DNA from: Neoactinobaculum massilliense
GTDB lineage: Bacteria; Actinomycetota; Actinomycetes; Actinomycetales; Actinomycetaceae
DNA length: 64,000 nt
Direction of reading: 5' to 3'
NCBI RefSeq assembly: GCF_900604955.1
Contig: NZ_UWPE01000001.1
Coordinates: 434,001-498,000 of the forward strand
Part shown: positions 26,701-38,850 of the stretch, one piece after another
Position numbering within the stretch: the stretch's first letter is position 1
Layout of the letters: the number at the start of each line of letters is the position of its first letter
The notes under the pieces: generated by a model
Databases searched by the model: none
The model's input: the letters and a program-made list of their open reading frames with translations, nothing else
What the model was told of the DNA's origin: nothing
Translations under genes and position numbers: made by a program

Positions 26701-27573
26701 GTGCCTGAACTACCCGAGGTCGAGTCGGTGCGTCGCGGATTGGCGCATCACCTGGCCGGCCGCCGCATCACGGATGTACGCACCATGGGCTCTCGCGTGA
26801 TTCGGCATTCGCCGGCCGGGCTGGGGGAGTTTATCGGGCAACGGGTAACCGACGTGGTACGCCGCGGCAAGTTCCTCTGGGTTACCTTCGGTGGCGCGCG
26901 GACACTGGTGGCGCATCTCGGCATGTCCGGGCAGTTCCGCCTGGATGGTGGCGATTTTCGTCACACTCGCGCCGAATTCACGCTCGATGATCACGTCCGC
27001 CTTTTCTTCGTGGATCAGCGCACGTTCGGATATCTCGCGGCCGACACCCTGATACCCACCCCGGATGGAGCACCGGGAGGCGCCGGGACACACCTGGCCG
27101 CGGTGCCTGCGCGCGTGGCGCATATTGCCCGAGATCCACTGGATCCCGCCTTCGACGTCGTCCCGTTTGCGGTGAGTATCCGGGCCTCGCGGTCCACGAT
27201 TAAGCAGCTCCTGCTGGATCAGAAGCGGGTAAGCGGCGTGGGGAACATCTATGCGGATGAGGCACTGTGGCACGCCCAGCTCAACCCGCACCAGCGCGGG
27301 CGGACCCTTCAAGAGGCAGAGGCGTATCGGCTGGTGGAGGCGCTGCGGGATGTGCTCGGTGCGGCGCTCAAGGCCGGAGGCACCTCCTTCGACGAGCTCT
27401 ACGTCAATGTGAACGGTGAATCCGGCTATTTCGCCCGAAGCTTACGGGCCTACGGGCGTGCGGGCCTGCCGTGCCAGCGCTGCGGAAACTTAATGCGGCG
27501 GGACGTGATAGGTGGACGCTCAGCCACGTACTGTAGGGCGTGTCAACCATTACGACGTCGGGTGGGCCAGTAG
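26701..27573 (+). CDS. mutM: Formamidopyrimidine-DNA glycosylase
   Basis: A 290-residue base-excision repair enzyme removing 8-oxoguanine and Fapy lesions. After Met removal the catalytic Pro2-Glu3 start PELPEVESVRRGL. The C-terminal zinc finger is complete (CQRCG and CRACQ). The start is GTG immediately after the rnc stop. The following response regulator starts 44 bases past the mutM stop. Confidence 0.97.
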   Translation: MPELPEVESVRRGLAHHLAGRRITDVRTMGSRVIRHSPAGLGEFIGQRVTDVVRRGKFLWVTFGGARTLVAHLGMSGQFRLDGGDFRHTRAEFTLDDHVRLFFVDQRTFGYLAADTLIPTPDGAPGGAGTHLAAVPARVAHIARDPLDPAFDVVPFAVSIRASRSTIKQLLLDQKRVSGVGNIYADEALWHAQLNPHQRGRTLQEAEAYRLVEALRDVLGAALKAGGTSFDELYVNVNGESGYFARSLRAYGRAGLPCQRCGNLMRRDVIGGRSATYCRACQPLRRRVGQ

Positions 27574-27617
27574 CGGGGCTCTCCTGGTACTATGAAGCGC
27601 GTTTGGGAGGGGCGATT

Positions 27618-28253
27618 TTGAGCATTCGTGTGATGATCATTGATGATCATGAAGTAGTCCGGCGTGGGATCGCGGAGGTTATCGATCGCGCCGATGATCT
27701 TGAAGTGGTGGCGGAAGCCGGCACGGTGAAGGAGGCCGTGGCGCGCGGACAGTTAATGAAGCCGGATGTGGCGCTGGTGGACCTGCGCCTACCGGACGGA
27801 ACGGGCCTGGACGTGATCGAGCGCTTCAAGGCACTGTCGCCGGACACCAAGGCAATTGTGTTGACGTCCTTTAACGACGACGATGCGCTCGCGGAGTCCC
27901 TTGAAGCCGGGGCTCGGGCATACATGCTGAAGTCGGTGCGCGGCGCGGACATTGTGGACAACATCCGGGCCGTTGCCGAGGGACGCGTACTCCTTGATGA
28001 GAAGATGGTGGCCCGGCGGCGCGCCGAGTCCAATGACCCGACCGCGGATCTCACCCCCGCGGAGCGGAAGGTTCTGGATCTCATCGGGGATGGCCTATCG
28101 AACCGGGAGATCGGGGAGAGGCTGGGCGTGGCGGAGAAAACCGTCAAGAATCACATCACATCCCTGCTGGCCAAGATGGGCTTCCAGCGGCGTACACAGG
28201 TGGCCGCGTGGGTGGCTGCTCAGCGTGCTTCCGGGTGGCGATCGGTTCAGTAG
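27618..28253 (+). CDS. DosR/DevR-like response regulator (NarL/LuxR family)
   Basis: A 211-residue two-component regulator with an N-terminal receiver (Asp9/Asp10 acidic pocket, phospho-acceptor Asp55 in VDLRLPDG, Lys105) and a C-terminal LuxR HTH (about 145-205). The opening IIDDHEVVRRG and recognition helix VAEKTVKNHITSLLAKMG closely resemble mycobacterial DosR. The base-contacting Lys-x2-Lys-Asn (Lys174, Lys177, Asn178 here) is kept. The TTG start is chosen for the GGGAGGGG site five bases upstream. It is convergent with the GAF-domain kinase, the obvious cognate sensor. A perfect DosR-type box lies upstream of cydA. Confidence 0.88.
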   Translation: MSIRVMIIDDHEVVRRGIAEVIDRADDLEVVAEAGTVKEAVARGQLMKPDVALVDLRLPDGTGLDVIERFKALSPDTKAIVLTSFNDDDALAESLEAGARAYMLKSVRGADIVDNIRAVAEGRVLLDEKMVARRRAESNDPTADLTPAERKVLDLIGDGLSNREIGERLGVAEKTVKNHITSLLAKMGFQRRTQVAAWVAAQRASGWRSVQ

Positions 28254-28260
28254 TGGTGCT

Positions 28261-28296
28261 GGGGCCGGCCGCTCTGTGAATGGTTTGACCGGCCCC
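28261..28296. terminator. GC-rich hairpin between the convergent regulator and kinase genes
   Basis: GGGGCCGG and CCGGCCCC form an 8-bp stem around a 20-nt loop in the 49-bp space between the two stops. There is no T-run on either side; it is probably a shared weak terminator. Confidence 0.5.
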
Positions 28297-28302
28297 GGTA
28301 AC

Positions 28303-29874
28303 CTACGCGATACCCGCGGTCCAGCGGATCGATGTGCCATGCCCGTGTTCACCGGGCGAAATCGAGAAGGAACCACGATGACGCCGTGCGCGAGCGGCTA
28401 GATTAGACAGCCCGGAGCGGCGGCCCACCTCGGTGATGCCTTTTCCGTTATCCGTGATAATGATTTCCGCGTGCGAGTCCTCAATGGTGATGGTGACGGA
28501 GACGGCGGTGGCATGTGCATGCCGGGCCACATTCGAGAGGCCTTCCCGCACCACCGCTACGATGTCATCAGCGAGATCACTGCCCACCGTGTCATCCAGG
28601 TGTGTTCCGGTATCCGGTCCCACGGGTTCACCCTGCAGGGTCATGGTGACCGACGGTTCGAAGCCCATGGACATGGTGGCCGTGGTGTACTCGTGGCTGA
28701 GACGCCGCATCAGCGGCACGGTGGCGCTGGGATCACGAAGCGAGTAGATAATCTGGCGGATCTGCGTAACCGACTCATTGATAGAACTAATGGCGCTATC
28801 TAGCCCGGCCACCACAGATCCGGGCACTGCCCGTTGCGCTGCCAGATCCTCGCGGGTAGCTGCCAACTGCATGCCCGAGGCGAATAGCTGCTGGATGGCA
28901 AAATCATGGAGATCGCGCGAAATCTTAGCACGATCCTCAATCTGCGCGGCCGTCGCCTCCGTTTGGCGGGCGCCCGCCAGCGCCAATGCGAGTGTGGCCT
29001 GCTTCGCCACACTTTCGGCCATCGCGAGATTGGCCAAATCATATTCAGGCCGGCCCTGAGCCCGTACCAGGAGGATCATGCCGCGTGATTCTCCGCGCGC
29101 CGCGAGAGGCACGGCCATGGCGGGGCCAAAGTGGCGCAGGGGCTCGGGTACGTCCTCGTTGTTCTTGAGGGAAGCCTCAATGGAGCCGGTGCCGTCCCGT
29201 GCCATGGTGCGCAAAGAGGTGTCCGGCGGGAATGGAAGCCCCAGTAGCGACGCGGTATCCGCGCCATCGGCAAATTCGCTCAACCACATCTCTCCAAGGG
29301 AGGGAAGCACAATAATCGCTACCTCGGATTGGGAGACACGGCGCATCTCCTTGGCAATGAGCTGGAAGGCATCCTCCTCTTCCGAGCCTTCCAGCAGGGC
29401 CGTTGTGATGGCGCGACTAGCGGCGATCCATTGGGCGCGAGAATTAGATTCGGCATAGAGCCGGGCATTTTCCATCGCGATGGCCGCAGCTTTTCCTACC
29501 ACGGTGAGCGCGGCGACGTCGTCGTCCGTGAAGGGCTGCGTGCGCGTTAGAGCTAGGGTGGCGAAGGATGGTCCGTGATAGGTGAGCGCAATTGACACCA
29601 CTCGGTACTCATCCGCCAGTGCAGCGCCCTCCAGGGGCGGAACGAAATGGTCCTTCAGCCGGCCCTGAGTGGTGTGGAGCGCGCCGCCACCCGCGTACAT
29701 GAATTGAGCTGGTCTGCCTCGGGAATCAAGCAGGGCGATACCGGCTGTATCCGCGTCTGTCAGCGTCAGGGCAGCATCCAGTAGCGCCTGATAGACGGCC
29801 TGCGTGTCGAGACGAGATGTGAGGTCAAGGACACGGGACAGGACGGTGGTGAGACGTTCAGCATTTTCCTTCAT
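28303..29874 (-). CDS. GAF-domain sensor histidine kinase (DosS/DevS-like)
   Basis: A 523-residue soluble kinase: two GAF domains (about 20-140 and 160-305), a HisKA_3 dimerisation domain with phospho-acceptor His323 in ISRDLHDFAIQQLF, and a HATPase domain (EGLSNVARHAH, TDNGKGI, GLSNLAAR). There are no membrane segments and no cysteines. The first GAF contains His67, His76 and His100; in mycobacterial DosS/DosT this domain binds heme through a histidine, but I cannot tell whether one of these does so here. The ATG overlaps the cydC stop by four bases, so the kinase is translated together with the cytochrome bd assembly exporter. Confidence 0.88.
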   Translation of the reverse strand: MKENAERLTTVLSRVLDLTSRLDTQAVYQALLDAALTLTDADTAGIALLDSRGRPAQFMYAGGGALHTTQGRLKDHFVPPLEGAALADEYRVVSIALTYHGPSFATLALTRTQPFTDDDVAALTVVGKAAAIAMENARLYAESNSRAQWIAASRAITTALLEGSEEEDAFQLIAKEMRRVSQSEVAIIVLPSLGEMWLSEFADGADTASLLGLPFPPDTSLRTMARDGTGSIEASLKNNEDVPEPLRHFGPAMAVPLAARGESRGMILLVRAQGRPEYDLANLAMAESVAKQATLALALAGARQTEATAAQIEDRAKISRDLHDFAIQQLFASGMQLAATREDLAAQRAVPGSVVAGLDSAISSINESVTQIRQIIYSLRDPSATVPLMRRLSHEYTTATMSMGFEPSVTMTLQGEPVGPDTGTHLDDTVGSDLADDIVAVVREGLSNVARHAHATAVSVTITIEDSHAEIIITDNGKGITEVGRRSGLSNLAARARRHRGSFSISPGEHGHGTSIRWTAGIA

Positions 29875-31730
29875 AGCAACTCTTGTCCCGCGGACCAGGC
29901 GTAGGCCTCGTCGCGTGCGAGTAGTTCGGCGTGTGTGCCATGATCCCGGATCCGCGTGCCCGTATCGGTGCGTTCCAGCAGAATCACCTCGTCTGCCACA
30001 TCCAATGAGGAGAGGCGGTGAGTGGCGAGTATAACCGTGCGTCCGCGACCTTCACGTTTGCCAGCTAGCAGCAGGTCCCGAATGAGACGATCCGCGGTTT
30101 CACCATCGAGATGCTCACCGGGCTCATCGAGGAGAAGGAATTCGGCGGGGGAGGCAAGGGCGCGCGCCAACAGCAGACGGCGCCGCTCGCCACCGGAGAT
30201 CGTGGCGCCTTCCTCTCCAAGCATTGTATGGACGCCATCGGGAAGCTCAGATAGCCAGGTGCCCAGACCTACCTGTACTAGGTAGGTGACGGCCTCGCGT
30301 TCAGTGACATCCGGCCGCGCGGCGCGCAGGTTTTCCAACACGGTAGTTTGGAAAATATGTGCGTCCTCGGCCGTGAGCGAGAGCGTACGCGATACGTCGG
30401 CGCGGGACAGTGCGGCAATTGTGCGGCCATCGAGTGTCACACTACCGCTGACCGGGTGCAGCATGCCGGCGAGCGTATAGAGGAGAGTGGATTTACCCAC
30501 GCCGGAGCGGCCAACGATGGCCACCGTTTTCCCGCGTTCAAACGTGAAATCGAAGGGGCCGCCCACCGGTGGGTAGCCCGGCCAGCCGATCCTGGCGTCC
30601 CGTGCAAGCAGGCCGGCGCGGGTGGCTGGTGCCGCCGTGGTGGGCGTGGCGGCGGCCGGGGCTGAAGGAGTCGCCGGCCGGGCAGGCGTGGCGGGCTCGG
30701 TGAGCACGAACGACTCGGTGAGTGCGGACGGCGTGACGGGGTCGGCCCCCTCCGGGGTGGCCGAATCGAGCAGTTCCATAATGCGGGATGCCGCCTTGGC
30801 GCTGTGCACCAACTGGATGGCGCCCTCGGGGAGCTGCTCAATGGCCTCATAGGCGGCTAGTGGGGTGAGCACGCAGACGGCCAGTTCGGTGGCGGCCAGG
30901 GTACCGCCGGCGAACTGAAGTACGCCAATAAGAATGGCAGCCGCTACTGAAATACCCATGCATATCGTCTGCAGGGCCTTGGCGGCGGCCTGCGGGCGGG
31001 CGGCCGCGTCACGGTGCCTGAAAATACGTGACTCGGTCGCGGCAAGCGCATCTTCCATCCGGCCGAGATACCCGGAAACACGCAGTTCCGAGGGCGAATC
31101 CAGCATGGTGAGGGCGTGGGCGGATACCTCCGCTAGATCCTCCACCTGTGCCTCTTCAGCAATCCGTGCGCCCTTGGCCGCCAGCATGGGGCCAACCACG
31201 CCGGAGCAAATCAGGCAGGCGGCCAGGATCAGCCCGATGAGTGGAGAGAGCGCGCCCACGATAACGCAGGAAACCAGGGATACAACGATGGCCACGAACG
31301 CTGGCTGAATCGCTTTGACCACCACGTCACCAACGGCGTCCACGTCGCGTCCCGTGCGGTCTAGGAGGTCGCCGCGGGACAGTGCGGACACGCTATCCGT
31401 GGAGGAATTTGCCAGTGTTTCATACACATGCGTGCGCAGGTGGGACATGCCGTAAAGTGCAACGCGGTGCGAGGAGAGCCGATTGATGTACCGGAGGACG
31501 GCTTTTGATACGCCGAGGGCGCGCACAGCGGTGGTGGCCACGGATAGTTGCAGCACGGGTGGCATCTGGGAGGCGCGTGTAATGAGCCAAGCGGATACGG
31601 CGGAGAGTCCGACGGCGGACGAGAGTCCAGCTGATCCAGCCGCCACGGACCAGGCGAATCCGGCCTTATCCACATCGAGTGCGTCAATGGAGCGCTTGAG
31701 TGCGGTGCGCTCGGAGCGTGGAAGAATCAT
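29871..31730 (-). CDS. cydC: CydC subunit of the CydDC thiol exporter
   Basis: A 619-residue ABC half-transporter: N-terminal six-helix membrane domain and C-terminal ATPase with Walker A GRSGVGKSTLL, signature ISGGERRR and Walker B FLLLDEPGEHLD. With CydD it exports glutathione/cysteine and is needed to assemble cytochrome bd. A Pro/Ala/Thr-rich linker (nucleotides about 30612-30710) is inserted between the membrane and ATPase domains. The start overlaps the cydD stop by one base and the end overlaps the kinase gene by four. Confidence 0.93.
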   Translation of the reverse strand: MILPRSERTALKRSIDALDVDKAGFAWSVAAGSAGLSSAVGLSAVSAWLITRASQMPPVLQLSVATTAVRALGVSKAVLRYINRLSSHRVALYGMSHLRTHVYETLANSSTDSVSALSRGDLLDRTGRDVDAVGDVVVKAIQPAFVAIVVSLVSCVIVGALSPLIGLILAACLICSGVVGPMLAAKGARIAEEAQVEDLAEVSAHALTMLDSPSELRVSGYLGRMEDALAATESRIFRHRDAAARPQAAAKALQTICMGISVAAAILIGVLQFAGGTLAATELAVCVLTPLAAYEAIEQLPEGAIQLVHSAKAASRIMELLDSATPEGADPVTPSALTESFVLTEPATPARPATPSAPAAATPTTAAPATRAGLLARDARIGWPGYPPVGGPFDFTFERGKTVAIVGRSGVGKSTLLYTLAGMLHPVSGSVTLDGRTIAALSRADVSRTLSLTAEDAHIFQTTVLENLRAARPDVTEREAVTYLVQVGLGTWLSELPDGVHTMLGEEGATISGGERRRLLLARALASPAEFLLLDEPGEHLDGETADRLIRDLLLAGKREGRGRTVILATHRLSSLDVADEVILLERTDTGTRIRDHGTHAELLARDEAYAWSAGQELL

Positions 31731-33400
31731 TAGACCTCCGTTTCAGCGGGCTGGGCAACGGGAGCGGCCGTCACGTCCACCACGTTGTCCGCGATGGCGA
31801 TGAGCGCGGCACGGTGCGCGATGACCAGCACCGTTCTGCCCTGGGCCCGGAGCTGTTCAACGGCACGCACCACGTGTGCTTCGGACGCAGCATCCAAATG
31901 CGCGGACGGTTCGTCGAGGATGACGAACCGCCTGTCAGAAAGAAGAGCGCGCGTGAGCGCGAGGCGTTGCCGCTGACCTACAGAGAGTCCGACGCCGCCC
32001 TGCCCCACGCGCGCATTCCAGCGTTCGGGCAGGGCATCGAGGACCTCGGTGAATCCGGTCAGTGAGGCGGCATCCTCGGCAGCCTCGGTAACGATGCCGC
32101 CCTCTACCACGTTGTCCGCCACGGTACCAGGAACGATTGCCGGGCGTTGCGGGATCCAGGCCATTTGCGCCCAGAGGGAGGAACGGGCAATGGATCCGAG
32201 GGGTAATCCTCCCACGATTACCGCGCCACCGGTGGGATCCACAAAACGCTCGAGAACGGCGGCGGTGGTGGATTTACCGGCGCCCGAGGGACCGCGCAGT
32301 GCGGTGATTTGGCCGGGAGTGATAGTGACGGTGAGGTGAGCGGGGGCAATGGTGTCGCGGCCGGGCGCGCGCACGGTGAGGTCCTCGATGCGGATAGTGG
32401 CCGAGGCGAGATCCGGCGCATCCATGGTGCCATCCGCCACCAGGTCATCCTGCTCCAGCACAGCAAAGGCCGCATTGGATGCGGCCACACCGTTGGCCGA
32501 GGCATGGAACTGCGTCCCAACCTCTCGGATAGGGTTAAACACTTCCGGGGTGAGCATGATGATGGCGAGCCCCACGAACAGGCCCATATGTCCGCTCACC
32601 ATGCGCAGTCCCACCTCCACCGCCACGATGGCTGTTGACAGCGTGGTAAGGAATTCGAGTACGCCGCCGGAGAGGAAGGCTACATAGAGCGTCTGCATGG
32701 TTTTGCTGGCGTAGTCATCACCGAGTTGGCGCACGCGCCGCGCGGGCCCCTTCTCACGGCCGAGCGCCTTGAGTGTGGCGAGCCCGCCGAGCAGGTCGAG
32801 GAGCTGCTGGCCGAGCCGCTGCATGGAGGCCAGGCGTTCCGCGGAGAAAGATTCGGTGAGCCGGCCGATGAGCACCATGAACAGTGGAACGAGCGGAATA
32901 CACACGATAATCGCGACGGCGGACACCCAGTCCATGCAGAGAATGACGATGAGACACAGCGGGGTAGCCGTGACGGAGAGGATTAACTGGGGGAGGAATT
33001 TAACGAAATACGTTTCGAGATCATCCAGGCCTGAGGTCACCAGTGACACGGTGGACGTGGTGTTTCCGCCTCCTAGCCACCGTTCGCCAAGATCACCCGC
33101 GCGTTTCACGACGGCGGCGCGCAGCCTGGCAATAGTACGCAAGGCAGCGCGGTGTCCGAGCGACTCACGGCAATAGATAAGGAGTGAGCGCACGAGGAAA
33201 ACGGTCAGGGTGAGGATGCCAAATAATGCGCCGTGCTGCCAGGGCTGATCGCCGTCAATAACCGGGCTGATGGCCCATGCAATGAGGATGCACTGGGCGA
33301 TAATCAGCGCCGTCTCCAGCATGCCGCTGCCGGCAAGAATGCGCACATAGCGGCGGGTATCCGCCCCGAATTTTAACAGGCGGGGATCCAGAGGTTTCAC
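31730..33400 (-). CDS. cydD: CydD subunit of the CydDC thiol exporter
   Basis: A 556-residue ABC half-transporter paired with CydC. Six hydrophobic segments precede an ATPase with GPSGAGKSTTA, LSVGQRQRLALTRAL and FVILDEPSAHLD. The start is GTG with AAAGGAG upstream. A terminator hairpin lies between cydB and this gene, so cydD, cydC and the kinase may have their own promoter or be expressed at a lower, read-through level compared with cydAB. Confidence 0.93.
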   Translation of the reverse strand: MKPLDPRLLKFGADTRRYVRILAGSGMLETALIIAQCILIAWAISPVIDGDQPWQHGALFGILTLTVFLVRSLLIYCRESLGHRAALRTIARLRAAVVKRAGDLGERWLGGGNTTSTVSLVTSGLDDLETYFVKFLPQLILSVTATPLCLIVILCMDWVSAVAIIVCIPLVPLFMVLIGRLTESFSAERLASMQRLGQQLLDLLGGLATLKALGREKGPARRVRQLGDDYASKTMQTLYVAFLSGGVLEFLTTLSTAIVAVEVGLRMVSGHMGLFVGLAIIMLTPEVFNPIREVGTQFHASANGVAASNAAFAVLEQDDLVADGTMDAPDLASATIRIEDLTVRAPGRDTIAPAHLTVTITPGQITALRGPSGAGKSTTAAVLERFVDPTGGAVIVGGLPLGSIARSSLWAQMAWIPQRPAIVPGTVADNVVEGGIVTEAAEDAASLTGFTEVLDALPERWNARVGQGGVGLSVGQRQRLALTRALLSDRRFVILDEPSAHLDAASEAHVVRAVEQLRAQGRTVLVIAHRAALIAIADNVVDVTAAPVAQPAETEV

Positions 33401-33480
33401 CGTTCTCCTTTCGCTCTCGCTATCCTACTGGGCCGCTCCGACGACGACGTGACATCCAGCAGTACCGCGTTCGGGCATAA

Positions 33481-33510
33481 AAATGCGGGCGGCCACAGCC
33501 GCCCGCATTT
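33481..33510 (-). terminator. Intrinsic terminator between cydB and cydD
   Basis: On the minus strand: AAATGCGGGCGGC-TGTG-GCCGCCCGCATTT followed by more T. The 13-bp perfect stem lies eight bases past the cydB stop and would separate cydAB from cydDC-kinase. Confidence 0.9.
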
Positions 33511-33517
33511 AATAACG

Positions 33518-34648
33518 CTAGCTGAGCTCGAACTGGCGCACCTTCTTCGGTTCGAGTCCAACGGGCTCAACCGGGATGGTGGCAGGATCGATCCGCTTGC
33601 GGAATACCGAATACGCCCAGATCGTGTAGGCGAGCACGATCGGCACGAAGATCACCGTGGCGATCGTCATGACGCCCTGGGTGGGCCGGCTGGCGGCCGC
33701 CTGAGCAATCGTCTGGGAATAGGCCGGATCAATAGAGGATTTCATCGTGTACGGAGCCATGGAGATGAAGATGAACACCACGGCCATGGCGATTGCCGCG
33801 AAGTGCGCGGCAAAGGCCTTAATTTCCTGCCCCTTGAAGATCCACAGATCAGCGAGGAGGAGGGAAACCGCGGCCAGCGCCAGCGGGAGCAGCGCCCAGG
33901 CGGAGCCGGAGTAGGCGAAGAACGCCCACAGGGCCCACACGGCCGTTAGAACGGTGGCAATCGGCGCCCACACGCGGGCCAGCTTGGTGGCGCGCTCCTG
34001 AAGTTCACCGCTGGTCTTAATGGCCACAAACAGCGCGCCGTGCGAGGCGAACAGGGACATCGTCACCAGGCCGGCCAGAATGGTGAACGGGGTAAGCAGA
34101 GACCAGAAGCCACCGGTGAGGTAGTGCTGGTTATCCGCGAGAGCCTGCCACGTCACATCGGAGGCCGGCAGGGCGTGGAAGGCGCCCTCGGCGTCGTACT
34201 GACCCACTTCGATACGCATGCCCTGCACCAGGTTTCCGAAGGCAACGCCCCACAGGATGGAGACGATCCACGCCGAGCCGGTGTGCAACTTGTCCCAGGT
34301 GCGACGCCACGTGGTTGTCCGAATCGTCTTGCGCCATTCGAGTGCGCAAATGCGGATGATCAGGCACAGCAGAATGAGAATGAGGGCGATGTACATGCCG
34401 GAGAACATGGTGGCGTACCACTCGGGGAAAGCCGCAAAGGTGGCACCGCCTGCCGTCAGGAGCCACACCTCGTTGCCGTCCCAGTGCGGGCCGATGGCGT
34501 TGAGAGTGGCGCGCCGTTCGCGCTCATTGCGCGGGAGCGAATTGAGGTGCATGCCCACGCCGAAATCGAAGCCCTCAAGGGTGAGGTATCCGATCCAGAG
34601 CACGCAGATAAGAATGAACCAGAGGGTATTGAGTCCTGTTTGTTCCAT
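33518..34648 (-). CDS. cydB: Cytochrome bd ubiquinol/menaquinol oxidase subunit II
   Basis: A 376-residue membrane protein with about nine transmembrane helices. The opening LWFILICVLWIGYLTLEGFDFG and the GNEVWLLTAGGATFAAFP segment are typical CydB. It stabilises the heme-bearing CydA in the quinol:O2 oxidoreductase. An AGGAGG site precedes the ATG, and nine bases separate it from cydA. Confidence 0.96.
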   Translation of the reverse strand: MEQTGLNTLWFILICVLWIGYLTLEGFDFGVGMHLNSLPRNERERRATLNAIGPHWDGNEVWLLTAGGATFAAFPEWYATMFSGMYIALILILLCLIIRICALEWRKTIRTTTWRRTWDKLHTGSAWIVSILWGVAFGNLVQGMRIEVGQYDAEGAFHALPASDVTWQALADNQHYLTGGFWSLLTPFTILAGLVTMSLFASHGALFVAIKTSGELQERATKLARVWAPIATVLTAVWALWAFFAYSGSAWALLPLALAAVSLLLADLWIFKGQEIKAFAAHFAAIAMAVVFIFISMAPYTMKSSIDPAYSQTIAQAAASRPTQGVMTIATVIFVPIVLAYTIWAYSVFRKRIDPATIPVEPVGLEPKKVRQFELS

Positions 34649-34657
34649 GACTGCCTC

Positions 34658-36160
34658 CTAGTACACGAATTCCGGCGTGGCTGCCGAATCATATTCGACA
34701 ACCTTCTTGCGGGTATTGATGCCCTCACGCGTGTAGCGCGCCAGGAGCCAGATCCAGACGATGCCGAGTGCCGTGTACAGCACGGTGAAGGCGGTGAGCG
34801 AGAACGCCACCGAGCCAGCACCCACCGAGTGGGATACACCCATGTTGGTCATGAGGAACACGCCGTCCAGTTCGCTCGGGTATACGACCCAGGGCTGACG
34901 GCCGATCTCCGTCATAATCCAGCCCGCGGAGTTAGCAATGAATGGCAGTGGCACCATCCACAGCCAGAACACGCCCCAGCCATGGGACCGGATCAAACGG
35001 TCACCGCGCAGGGCGATGAGGCCCACGAGCGTGATAAGGAAGCCCAGCATGCCCACGCCCACCATGACGCGGAAGCCCCAATAGACAGGCATCATGCTCG
35101 GACGGAAGTCTGCGTTGGCATAGGTGTCCGCGTACTTCTGCTGCAACTCGCTGTTCACCTGGGAGAGCTGCTGGACTCGGTCGCGCACCTGCTGGTTCGC
35201 GTCGTCGATGGAGATAAGCGTGGACTCAGGCCCGGAGAAGTGGTTCGTCATCATGAAGGACTCAAGGCCATCCCAGGGCAGGTAGACGGACTTCGGATTC
35301 TCGCAGTCGCTGGAGAACATCATGAGCGAGAGACGAGCGCTGTCCTCGGTGGTGCACACGCCCATCATGGCCGAGGCCTTGGTGGGCTGAATCTCGCCAA
35401 GGTGCTGGCCCATAAGGTGGCCGGAGCCGATGGCGAAGATGGAGGCAATGAGGCCGAACCACAGGCCCACGCGGGTGGCGGGCTTCCAGTATTCGCGTGC
35501 CTCGGTTTCGCTGCCGGTGAGCTTGATTGAGCGCTGCATCCACCAGATGCCGAAGCCTGCGACCAGGATGCCAGCCAGCATGAGGGAGGCGGCAATGGTG
35601 TGTACGAACGTGAGCTGCCACGTGGTGCCGAATAGCTTGAGGAAGCCGCTCATACCGTCCAGCTCAGCGCGGCCGGTCTCCATATTAATAACGGCGCCCT
35701 GCGGATCCTGCATAAAGGAATTTGCGGCCAGGATGAATGCGGCGGAGAAGAACGTGCCAAAGGCAAATAGCCAGATCGTGGCATTGTGTACCTTCGCGGA
35801 GAGCCGCCCGCGGCCGAAGATCCATAGGCCGAGGAACGTGGACTCGAGGAAGAAGGCGAGTAGCGCTTCAAAGGCCAGCGGTGCGCCGAAGATGTCGCCG
35901 ACAAAGCGGGAGTACTCGGACCAGTTGAGGCCGAACTGGAATTCCTGCACAATTCCCGTGGCTACACCCAGCGCGAAATTAATGAGCAGAATCTTGCCGA
36001 AGAAATCGGTAATACGCTGCCACTTGGGGTCACCCGACTTGCGGGCTTTGGTTTGCATTGTTGCGACGATGAATGCAAGTCCGATAGTCAGCGGTACCTG
36101 TAGCCAGTGGTACACAGTTGTGACACCGAATTGCCATCGCGCGAGGGTGAGGGCGTCCAC
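34658..36160 (-). CDS. cydA: Cytochrome bd oxidase subunit I
   Basis: A 500-residue integral membrane subunit holding hemes b558, b595 and d, and the quinol site. The axial His18 lies in VYHWLQVPLTIG, and the conserved GRQPW is present, as are GSGHLMGQH and the periplasmic Q-loop region. The GTG at 36160 follows AAAGGTG and gives the standard N-terminus MDALTLARWQFG. Cytochrome bd supports respiration at very low oxygen. The upstream region holds a hairpin and, farther away, a DosR-type palindrome. Confidence 0.96.
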   Translation of the reverse strand: MDALTLARWQFGVTTVYHWLQVPLTIGLAFIVATMQTKARKSGDPKWQRITDFFGKILLINFALGVATGIVQEFQFGLNWSEYSRFVGDIFGAPLAFEALLAFFLESTFLGLWIFGRGRLSAKVHNATIWLFAFGTFFSAAFILAANSFMQDPQGAVINMETGRAELDGMSGFLKLFGTTWQLTFVHTIAASLMLAGILVAGFGIWWMQRSIKLTGSETEAREYWKPATRVGLWFGLIASIFAIGSGHLMGQHLGEIQPTKASAMMGVCTTEDSARLSLMMFSSDCENPKSVYLPWDGLESFMMTNHFSGPESTLISIDDANQQVRDRVQQLSQVNSELQQKYADTYANADFRPSMMPVYWGFRVMVGVGMLGFLITLVGLIALRGDRLIRSHGWGVFWLWMVPLPFIANSAGWIMTEIGRQPWVVYPSELDGVFLMTNMGVSHSVGAGSVAFSLTAFTVLYTALGIVWIWLLARYTREGINTRKKVVEYDSAATPEFVY

Positions 36161-36191
36161 CTTGTCACCTTTCGATTGGATTGCCTTATGA

Positions 36192-36213
36192 CAGCTCACG
36201 ACGGGGTGAGCTG
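36192..36213. promoter_or_regulatory. 8-bp perfect inverted repeat in the cydA leader
   Basis: CAGCTCAC-GACGGG-GTGAGCTG lies 32-53 bases upstream of the cydA start. It is either a leader-RNA hairpin or an operator; no T-run follows on the cydA side. Confidence 0.45.
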
Positions 36214-36361
36214 ATTCCGTGGAAGTCCAATATGGGCCCGCGGAGTCATATGAATCTTACAAGCTCTCACCTGATTTGGACTGATAAGAAGCCCTTTTGA
36301 TTTCGTGGCGAGTAATAGAAATGCCGCGTTTGCGACGCCGTGTCGCACCGGTGGCTTTAGT

Positions 36362-36381
36362 CCCGGGACTAAAGTCCCTCG
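36362..36381. promoter_or_regulatory. DosR/DevR-type binding box upstream of cydA
   Basis: GGGACTAAAGTCCC (36365-36378) matches the 14-bp core of the published mycobacterial DosR consensus (GGGACT-WW-AGTCCC) at every position. The left side extends into CTTTAGTCCCGGGACTAAAG, a perfect 20-bp palindrome, giving three half-sites in a row. The outer TT/AA positions of the 20-bp consensus are not kept. It lies about 205 bp before cydA and about the same distance before the divergent rne gene. Confidence 0.72.
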
Positions 36382-36582: not shown

Positions 36583-38850
36583 ATGTCAGAGTCAGTGGAA
36601 ACACCCGCGTTCGCGGTTAATCTCTCCGCGCCGCTGTTCCAGGAACCAGATCTCGCAAATGCGATTTATGTACCGGCGGCGGAGCCGGAACCGGTGGAGG
36701 AACCTGAGGCACGTGAGGACCGGCCGCGTCGGCGTCGTGAAGAACGGCGAGAGGAAGCCGAGGAAGATAGTTCGCATACGCGGGAGGTAAAGCGTACGCG
36801 TCGGCGGCGCGTCTTGACGGAAGAGCCGGCATCGGACGAAGTGTTGGCCCCCAAGGGGTCCACGCGGCTTGCTGCCAAGCGTCAGCGGCGTCGTGCCGGC
36901 CGGCAGGCGGAACGGAGCCAACACGCGGTGACCGAGAGCGAATACATCGCCCGGCATGAGGTCATTAAACGTGAAATGCTGGTCCGCGAAAAGGACGGCC
37001 TCAACCAGATTGCCGTACTTGAAGATGACGTGCTGGTGGAGCACTACGTTGCTAAGCGCACGGAAGTGTCCATGGTGGGAAATATTTATCTGGGTCGCGT
37101 GCAGAATGTACTGCCGTCCATGGAGGCCGCGTTCGTCGATATTGGCGCACGCCGCAATGCGGTGCTCTACGCCGGTGAGGTGAATTGGGAAGCGGCCGGC
37201 GTGTCCCGGAAAAATCGGCGCATTGAGAATGCGCTAAAGAGCGGGGACCCGGTACTGGTGCAGGTGACCAAGGATCCCATCGGCCATAAGGGTGCCCGGC
37301 TCACGGCGCAGATTACCCTGGCGGGACGTCATTTGGTGCTGGTGCCGGGGCGTAAATCCACCGGCATTTCACGCAAGCTTCTGGAGAAGGAACGGCGCCG
37401 TCTCAAGACCATCCTCAAAGAGGTGCTGCCTGAGGATCAGGGCGCGATTGTGCGCACGGCCGCGGAGGGGGCCACTCGCGAACAACTCGAAGAGGACGTC
37501 AACCGGCTCGTGGCCACCTGGAACACCATCCAGGAGAAGGCGAAGAATGGTAAGGCGGCGCCCGTGTGTCTGCGTGCGGAACCGGAACTCGCCGTACGTG
37601 TGGTGCGTGACGTGTTCAATGAGGATTTCGATTCGCTCCAGGTGCAGGGAGAGGAAACCTGGACCACTATTTCGGAGTACGTGAAGGAGATGTCTCCGGA
37701 GCTTGCGGACCGCGTAAGCAAGTGGACGGGTACGGGTGATATTTTCACCGAGCGCCGGGTGGACGAGCAACTCGCGAAAGCATTCGACCGGAAGGTGTGG
37801 CTCCCCAGCGGTGGCACGCTCATTATCGATCGCACTGAGGCGATGACGGTGATTGACGTGAACACCGGTAAGTTCACGGGCAGTGGCGGGTCGCTTGAGG
37901 AGACGGTCACCAAGAATAATTTGGAGGCTGCCGAGGAGATTGTGCGCCAGCTGCGCCTGCGGGATATTGGCGGCATCGTGGTGGTGGACTTCATCGACAT
38001 GGTGCTGGAGCAGAATCGCGATCTGGTCCACCGGCGTCTGCTCGAGTGCCTGGCGCGGGATCGCACGCGTCACCAGGTGTCCGAGGTGACTTCGCTCGGT
38101 CTTATTCAGATGACCCGCAAGCGTGTGGGGCAGGGGCTGGTCGAGGCGTTCTCCACCACCTGCGAGGCCTGCGATGGACGTGGCTACATCATTCACGATC
38201 ATCCGGTGGAGCGTGACGAAGGACGCCACAAGCGCACTCGCAAGAGCGCGCGCGAGGAAAAGCAGCGTGATGCTACCCGTGCGGCGATGAATTCCATTGC
38301 GGCTGCCACACACGCGGAGGATGAGGAAAAGCCTGCGGAGGAAAAAACGGCGACGTCCTCGACGCCTGCGGATTCCCATGCTTCCGAGGTAAAGGACTCG
38401 GCGGCGTCGGCGGGCGAGACTCACTCCGGGTTGAAGGACCAGCCCACCTCGAAGAATTCGGGGGAGCCGGACGCGAAGAATGCGCGTGGTGAAGCTGAAG
38501 GTGCCGACGCCGAAGCCCCGGCAGCTAAGAAGCCGGCTAGGAAGCGGGGAACGGAGAAGTCCAGCGCCAAGAAGACGGGTAAGCGCTCGGTTCGTAAGGC
38601 TGGCCGCGGCGCCAAAGAGCCTGTTGCTGAGACGGGTACGGATGAGAATTCGGATGGTAAGGCTTCGACGTCGCGGCGTCGCGGGCATCGCGCCGTCGTA
38701 TTTTCTGGCACCGTGACCCCGAAGTCGAGCGGCGGGCAACGCATTACCGTCACTACCGCAGCACCGAGCGCGGGAGTGAAGGCCGTGAAGACCTCCGGTA
38801 AGGCCCGGCGGGCGGTTTCTTCGCGAGGCGTCATCTCAACCGCGCGGTAG
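36583..38850 (+). CDS. rne: Ribonuclease E/G
   Basis: A 755-residue endoribonuclease for mRNA turnover and rRNA/tRNA maturation. The N-terminal extension (about 1-120) is acidic/basic and disordered. Next come an S1-like segment VGNIYLGRVQNVLPSMEAAF and the catalytic core, whose DNase I-like domain contains IDRTEAMTVIDVNTG and IVVVDFIDM (metal-binding aspartates). The zinc link is CEACDGRG. The C-terminal 200 residues are Lys/Ala/Glu-rich with no fold. ATG 36583 (GGGAAG upstream) is preferred over upstream in-frame starts. Confidence 0.95.
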   Translation: MSESVETPAFAVNLSAPLFQEPDLANAIYVPAAEPEPVEEPEAREDRPRRRREERREEAEEDSSHTREVKRTRRRRVLTEEPASDEVLAPKGSTRLAAKRQRRRAGRQAERSQHAVTESEYIARHEVIKREMLVREKDGLNQIAVLEDDVLVEHYVAKRTEVSMVGNIYLGRVQNVLPSMEAAFVDIGARRNAVLYAGEVNWEAAGVSRKNRRIENALKSGDPVLVQVTKDPIGHKGARLTAQITLAGRHLVLVPGRKSTGISRKLLEKERRRLKTILKEVLPEDQGAIVRTAAEGATREQLEEDVNRLVATWNTIQEKAKNGKAAPVCLRAEPELAVRVVRDVFNEDFDSLQVQGEETWTTISEYVKEMSPELADRVSKWTGTGDIFTERRVDEQLAKAFDRKVWLPSGGTLIIDRTEAMTVIDVNTGKFTGSGGSLEETVTKNNLEAAEEIVRQLRLRDIGGIVVVDFIDMVLEQNRDLVHRRLLECLARDRTRHQVSEVTSLGLIQMTRKRVGQGLVEAFSTTCEACDGRGYIIHDHPVERDEGRHKRTRKSAREEKQRDATRAAMNSIAAATHAEDEEKPAEEKTATSSTPADSHASEVKDSAASAGETHSGLKDQPTSKNSGEPDAKNARGEAEGADAEAPAAKKPARKRGTEKSSAKKTGKRSVRKAGRGAKEPVAETGTDENSDGKASTSRRRGHRAVVFSGTVTPKSSGGQRITVTTAAPSAGVKAVKTSGKARRAVSSRGVISTAR

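Follow-up and report, generated by a model that had tools for sequence, protein, structure and literature searches.

The arrangement of this locus, in which a DosR/DosS-like two-component pair lies against the cytochrome bd genes, raises the question of whether the pair governs the oxidase and, if so, which signal it would relay. The window, a stretch of 64,000 nucleotides, comes from an Actinomycetaceae genome of 1.87 Mb, and Pfam and NCBIfam searches returned the genes that the first-pass annotation had named, a convergent response regulator and kinase together with cydABDC. The regulator gene (27618..28253, forward strand, assuming the TTG at 27618 as start codon) encodes a receiver (REC) domain followed by a GerE/LuxR-type HTH. 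Facing it on the reverse strand are the gene of a DosS-like histidine kinase (28303..29874) and, upstream of this, those for the two subunits of the thiol reductant ABC exporter, cydC (29871..31730; TIGR02868, 3e-155) and cydD (31730..33400; TIGR02857, 1e-162), for cytochrome bd subunit II, cydB (33518..34648; PF02322 and TIGR00203), and for subunit I, cydA (34658..36199, with the true start probably at about 36160; PF01654). On the forward strand, rne follows from 36382, or more likely from the ATG at 36583. The start codon of the kinase gene overlaps the cydC stop codon (ATGA), a detail absent from the first-pass annotation, and we therefore take the kinase gene to close the cyd operon. The regulator gene is preceded by mutM and rnc, with a gap of 45 bp (stretch 26701-28253), and mutM is found near the regulator gene in 48 of 80 relatives; the regulator may thus be expressed from a housekeeping operon with mutM and rnc.

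This layout is shared across the family. Among 151 Actinomycetaceae genomes from 36 genera, 150 encode CydA, 149 the kinase and 148 the regulator. The kinase gene and cydA lie on one strand in all 80 of the fetched loci, and the regulator gene opposes the kinase gene in all 67 of those that include it within the fetched stretch. The nearest named kinases are those of Ancrocorticia, Actinobaculum and Actinotignum.

Among all PDB sequences, the best solved relative of the regulator is DevR/DosR of Mycobacterium tuberculosis (3c3w, 1.6e-50), which at 174.8 bits stands ahead of the next sequence at 127, so that over its full length the protein is closest to DosR. DosR contacts DNA bases through Lys179, Lys182 and Asn183 (PMC4082495), and all three are present in the window regulator within AEKTVKNH, bearing out the K-T-V-K-N pattern first reported from the sequence. 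This recognition helix is identical in 67 of 67 relatives, and identity over the regulator is 65–81% in nearly all of the family genomes that have it (148/151).

A matching DNA site lies in the gap between cydA and rne. The perfect palindrome GGGACTAAAGTCCC, proposed as the binding site of the regulator, occupies positions 36365-36378, about 205 bp from the likely start of cydA, as originally noted, and also about 205 bp from the likely start of rne. It is abutted by an imperfect copy, GTGGCTTTAGTCCC (36351..36364), with which it makes up the 20-bp perfect palindrome CTTTAGTCCCGGGACTAAAG. The exact sequence GGGACTNNAGTCCC occurs once in the window genome, where about 0.1 occurrences are expected (4^-12). 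A de novo search covering every gapped inverted repeat within 500 bp upstream of cydA at 81 loci ranked GGGAC-N4-GTCCC first, present at 26 loci and in none of the shuffled sequences, in which the best word reached 4. The relaxed form RGGAC-N4-GTCCY was found exactly at 37 of the 81 loci, vs 0.2 after dinucleotide shuffling and 0 in comparison segments taken elsewhere from these loci. Loss of the palindrome from relatives had been named beforehand as a result that would speak against the proposal; a counterpart is kept upstream of cydA at most loci (54/81 with at most one mismatch, vs 5.2 after dinucleotide shuffling and 3.1 in the comparison segments) and missing in some genera, the 27 loci without it belonging mostly to genomes that retain the regulator. 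The four central bases follow the pattern NWWN, with 72 of 74 central letters being A or T, in agreement with the mycobacterial consensus TTSGGGACTWWAGTCCCSAA, given as that exact string in PMC2275270. Conservation of GGGAC-NWWN-GTCCC at the target gene places the system with DosR/DevR, with binding itself predicted. The distance between site and cydA is 77-130 bp in many genera and 180-300 bp in others, including the genus of the window. Two points that speak against the proposal are that the distance here exceeds that in many relatives and that no sigma-70-like promoter was recognised. Several relatives have a pair of palindromes ahead of cydA, separated by 69 bp in the Actinotignum type and by 20 bp in other cases, an arrangement that could permit paired binding. 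No match to the cydA/rne gap was found among plasmids.

Lying midway between cydA and rne, the palindrome could also serve rne, which the first-pass annotation had suggested as a second target, or it could be the site of another regulator (Rex or CRP/GlxR) or an RNA hairpin, the match to DosR being coincidental. We consider this highly improbable. The site is present at 12 of the 19 loci at which rne does not adjoin cydA and at 41 of the 61 at which it does, and because it accompanies cydA in either case, cydA is the likelier target and rne is not favoured. What is conserved in the element is a gapped palindrome around an A/T centre, with flanks that vary freely, and its exact copy is single in the genome. 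A Rex box upstream of cydA was sought and found neither in the window nor as an enriched element in the family; for CRP/GlxR, the window contained no box, and in the family two-mismatch matches were only mildly commoner than in shuffled sequences (24 vs 10). The connection of the regulator to cyd is, as a prediction from sequence, well supported, because the gene layout is conserved, the recognition helix identical and the site conserved.

The sensory side of the system differs from what had been proposed. The kinase was described as a double-GAF protein, which holds loosely: domain searches gave a GAF-like domain without a heme ligand, followed by GAF, HisKA_3 and HATPase_c. Pfam recognises one of the two GAF domains (residues 165-297), the first being GAF-like, shortened and seen by fold prediction only. 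With this proviso, the protein has the order GAF-GAF-HisKA_3-HATPase and a DevS-like ATPase domain. In DosS, His149 binds the heme and Tyr171 discriminates between gases (PMC4082495). When the window kinase was aligned with those of 80 relatives, an equivalent of His149 was found in 47 of the 81 proteins and one of Tyr171 in 57. The window kinase has neither: its first GAF domain is shorter, the segment with the proximal His is absent and the distal Tyr position holds Ala. Eight Actinobaculum/Actinotignum-type kinases likewise lack the His, whereas most relatives have a first GAF domain of the DosS/DosT kind with both residues and retain the heme motif HPxMxxFLGVP...GRLYL. A model of the kinase from Ancrocorticia resembles solved GAF-A structures of DosS (2w3d; TM score of up to 0.82, about 40% identity), and no DosS structure was among the top 50 structural matches of the window kinase model.

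Since the His and Tyr equivalents are both missing, the window kinase offers no support for gas sensing through a DosS-type heme; this mode of sensing is likely for many of the relatives but unlikely for the window organism. The reading first put forward, that an intact DosS-like heme sensor of O2, NO or CO acts here through DosR-like binding at cydA, has in its favour the gene order, the site and the heme motif kept by most relatives, but besides the altered pocket it has to contend with the result that no second DosS-type kinase was found in the genome at E<=1e-10, the window kinase being the sole match to itself, and we regard it as quite unlikely. What stands of that reading is a DosRS-type pair tied to cytochrome bd by gene order and site; what does not is heme sensing in this organism.

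In a tree built from kinase columns outside the first GAF domain, the state of the heme His changes seven times, at least four of them on supported branches. We infer that the absence of heme residues reflects loss rather than the original state, because the heme-bearing relatives match DosS and heme motifs also occur in cyd-adjacent kinases outside the family. Site and heme His co-occur (raw p=0.002, and p=2e-5 without the window clade), a correlation that is not demonstrable after correction for kinship, the independent pairs being few. The repeated changes on supported branches, the long branch of the window kinase and the presence of two further HisKA_3 kinases in the genome (three in all) are compatible with another explanation, namely that the kinase is here a decaying, heme-less relic and that the regulator receives its input from another kinase or from acetyl phosphate. 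This is unlikely, given the conserved kinase core, with its H-box region and ATP-binding motifs, the conserved second GAF domain, the open reading frame and the unchanged place of the gene in the operon.

It is a single dedicated circuit that we consider probable: regulator, kinase and palindrome would form a DosRS-type system for cydABDC throughout the Actinomycetaceae, with a heme pocket that would have decayed in the window lineage. The kinase, as product of the last gene of the operon, would phosphorylate the convergently encoded regulator, and the phosphorylated regulator would bind GGGAC-NWWN-GTCCC in front of cydA and alter, most likely raise, transcription of the genes for the bd oxidase, for the exporter that serves its assembly and for the kinase. 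As the kinase gene belongs to the operon so controlled, the circuit would include feedback. For most relatives, the predicted input of the kinase is O2, NO, CO or redox state, perceived via a DosS-type heme in the first GAF domain; in the window lineage, in which this pocket appears to have decayed with the kinase core, regulator and DNA site intact, the signal would instead enter through the second GAF domain or be a different ligand, or else the kinase would act by default.

The extent of the regulon appears to vary. Across 21 genomes, the exact pattern RGGACNWWNGTCCY was found 137 times, vs 30 for the reversed pattern, with two sites in the window genome and 1 to 22 in each of the 20 relatives. 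The DosRS dormancy regulon of M. tuberculosis comprises about 50 target genes, and the two sites of the window genome do not amount to a regulon of many targets. In relatives, sites precede genes for pyruvate formate-lyase, arginine deiminase and lipoamide dehydrogenase, as well as for cytochrome oxidase subunit II, superoxide dismutase (SOD), a NapC/NrfH cytochrome and further proteins, although these are single sites assigned by simple ORF calling, and some of the about 30 annotated neighbours are unrelated or have no assignment. The gene set fits oxygen or redox control, and the occurrence of the same palindrome before fermentation and respiration genes hints at a wider oxygen regulon in the relatives. 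Sites with at most one mismatch were found at 5 of 22 pyruvate formate-lyase matches, vs 0.4 expected; as a conserved second target this gene was set aside, the window genome's own copy having no site. A second, divergent pyruvate-formate-lyase-like protein is encoded in the window genome at C2:1018774-1020903 in a 900-residue frame. Two other sites in this genome were not counted as targets: AGGACAAATGTCCT (C2:535758), 169 bp upstream of an ORF resembling solute-binding proteins, and GGGACTGGTGTCCC (C2:597455), inside a long ORF. With only two RGGACNWWNGTCCY sites in the genome and none at its pyruvate formate-lyase gene, cyd may be the main target here.

By the same sequence signatures, the predicted circuit reaches beyond the Actinomycetaceae into further families of its class. 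Outside the family, 10 loci contain regulator, kinase and cyd genes together, and 7 of these have the site when one mismatch is allowed, four being exact. At six Streptomyces-type cyd loci that have the kinase and no adjacent regulator, a Rex box, ATGTGAACGCGTTCACAA, precedes cydA. These Streptomyces-type loci end in a DosS-like kinase gene, and the heme motif is present in five of the six.

The closest known counterpart is the DosR/DosS-DosT (DevRS) system of M. tuberculosis, which shares the regulator family, the helix KTVKN, the site GGGAC-TWWA-GTCCC and a tandem-GAF kinase with HisKA_3, the DosS heme His and Tyr being kept in relatives of the window kinase. It differs in that the predicted target here is cydABDC, that the kinase gene lies inside this operon and that the heme residues are missing from the window kinase. 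In Corynebacterium glutamicum, the response regulator HrrA of the HrrSA system belongs to the LuxR family. HrrA binds DNA upstream of cydABDC and determines which terminal oxidase takes priority; HrrSA is, however, a heme-responsive system with >200 targets (PMC7337898). OsdKR of Streptomyces coelicolor has a DevR homologue with an overlapping regulon and a similar palindrome, but its consensus is AGGGCCGATCGGCCCT, its genes lie outside the cyd operon judging by gene numbers, and cyd genes are unmentioned in PMC5069765. Mycobacterial cydAB has been reported under the control of SenX3/RegX3, CRP and PrrAB rather than DosR (PMC7719681, PMC6898941), and in M. smegmatis it is cytochrome bd rather than DosR that contributes to CO tolerance (PMC8125079). 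In the open-licence literature searched, we met with no account of a DosR-type circuit within a cyd operon.

A broader proposal, toward which we lean slightly less than away from it, is that a cyd-specialised DosRS branch is the standard oxygen-to-oxidase switch of the Actinomycetaceae and of part of the class, in which heme would have been shed repeatedly and the output kept, kinases with and without heme driving the same promoter. If true, this would offer a natural series showing how a gas sensor is re-purposed, and pairing kinases that have heme with kinases that lack it at a single promoter would permit a test of how a signal input changes when the output is kept. The circuit would also set the tuberculosis dormancy switch in a broader context, and it would give the host-associated Actinomycetaceae, whose oxygen regulation is undescribed in the literature searched, a concrete circuit for their high-affinity oxidase.
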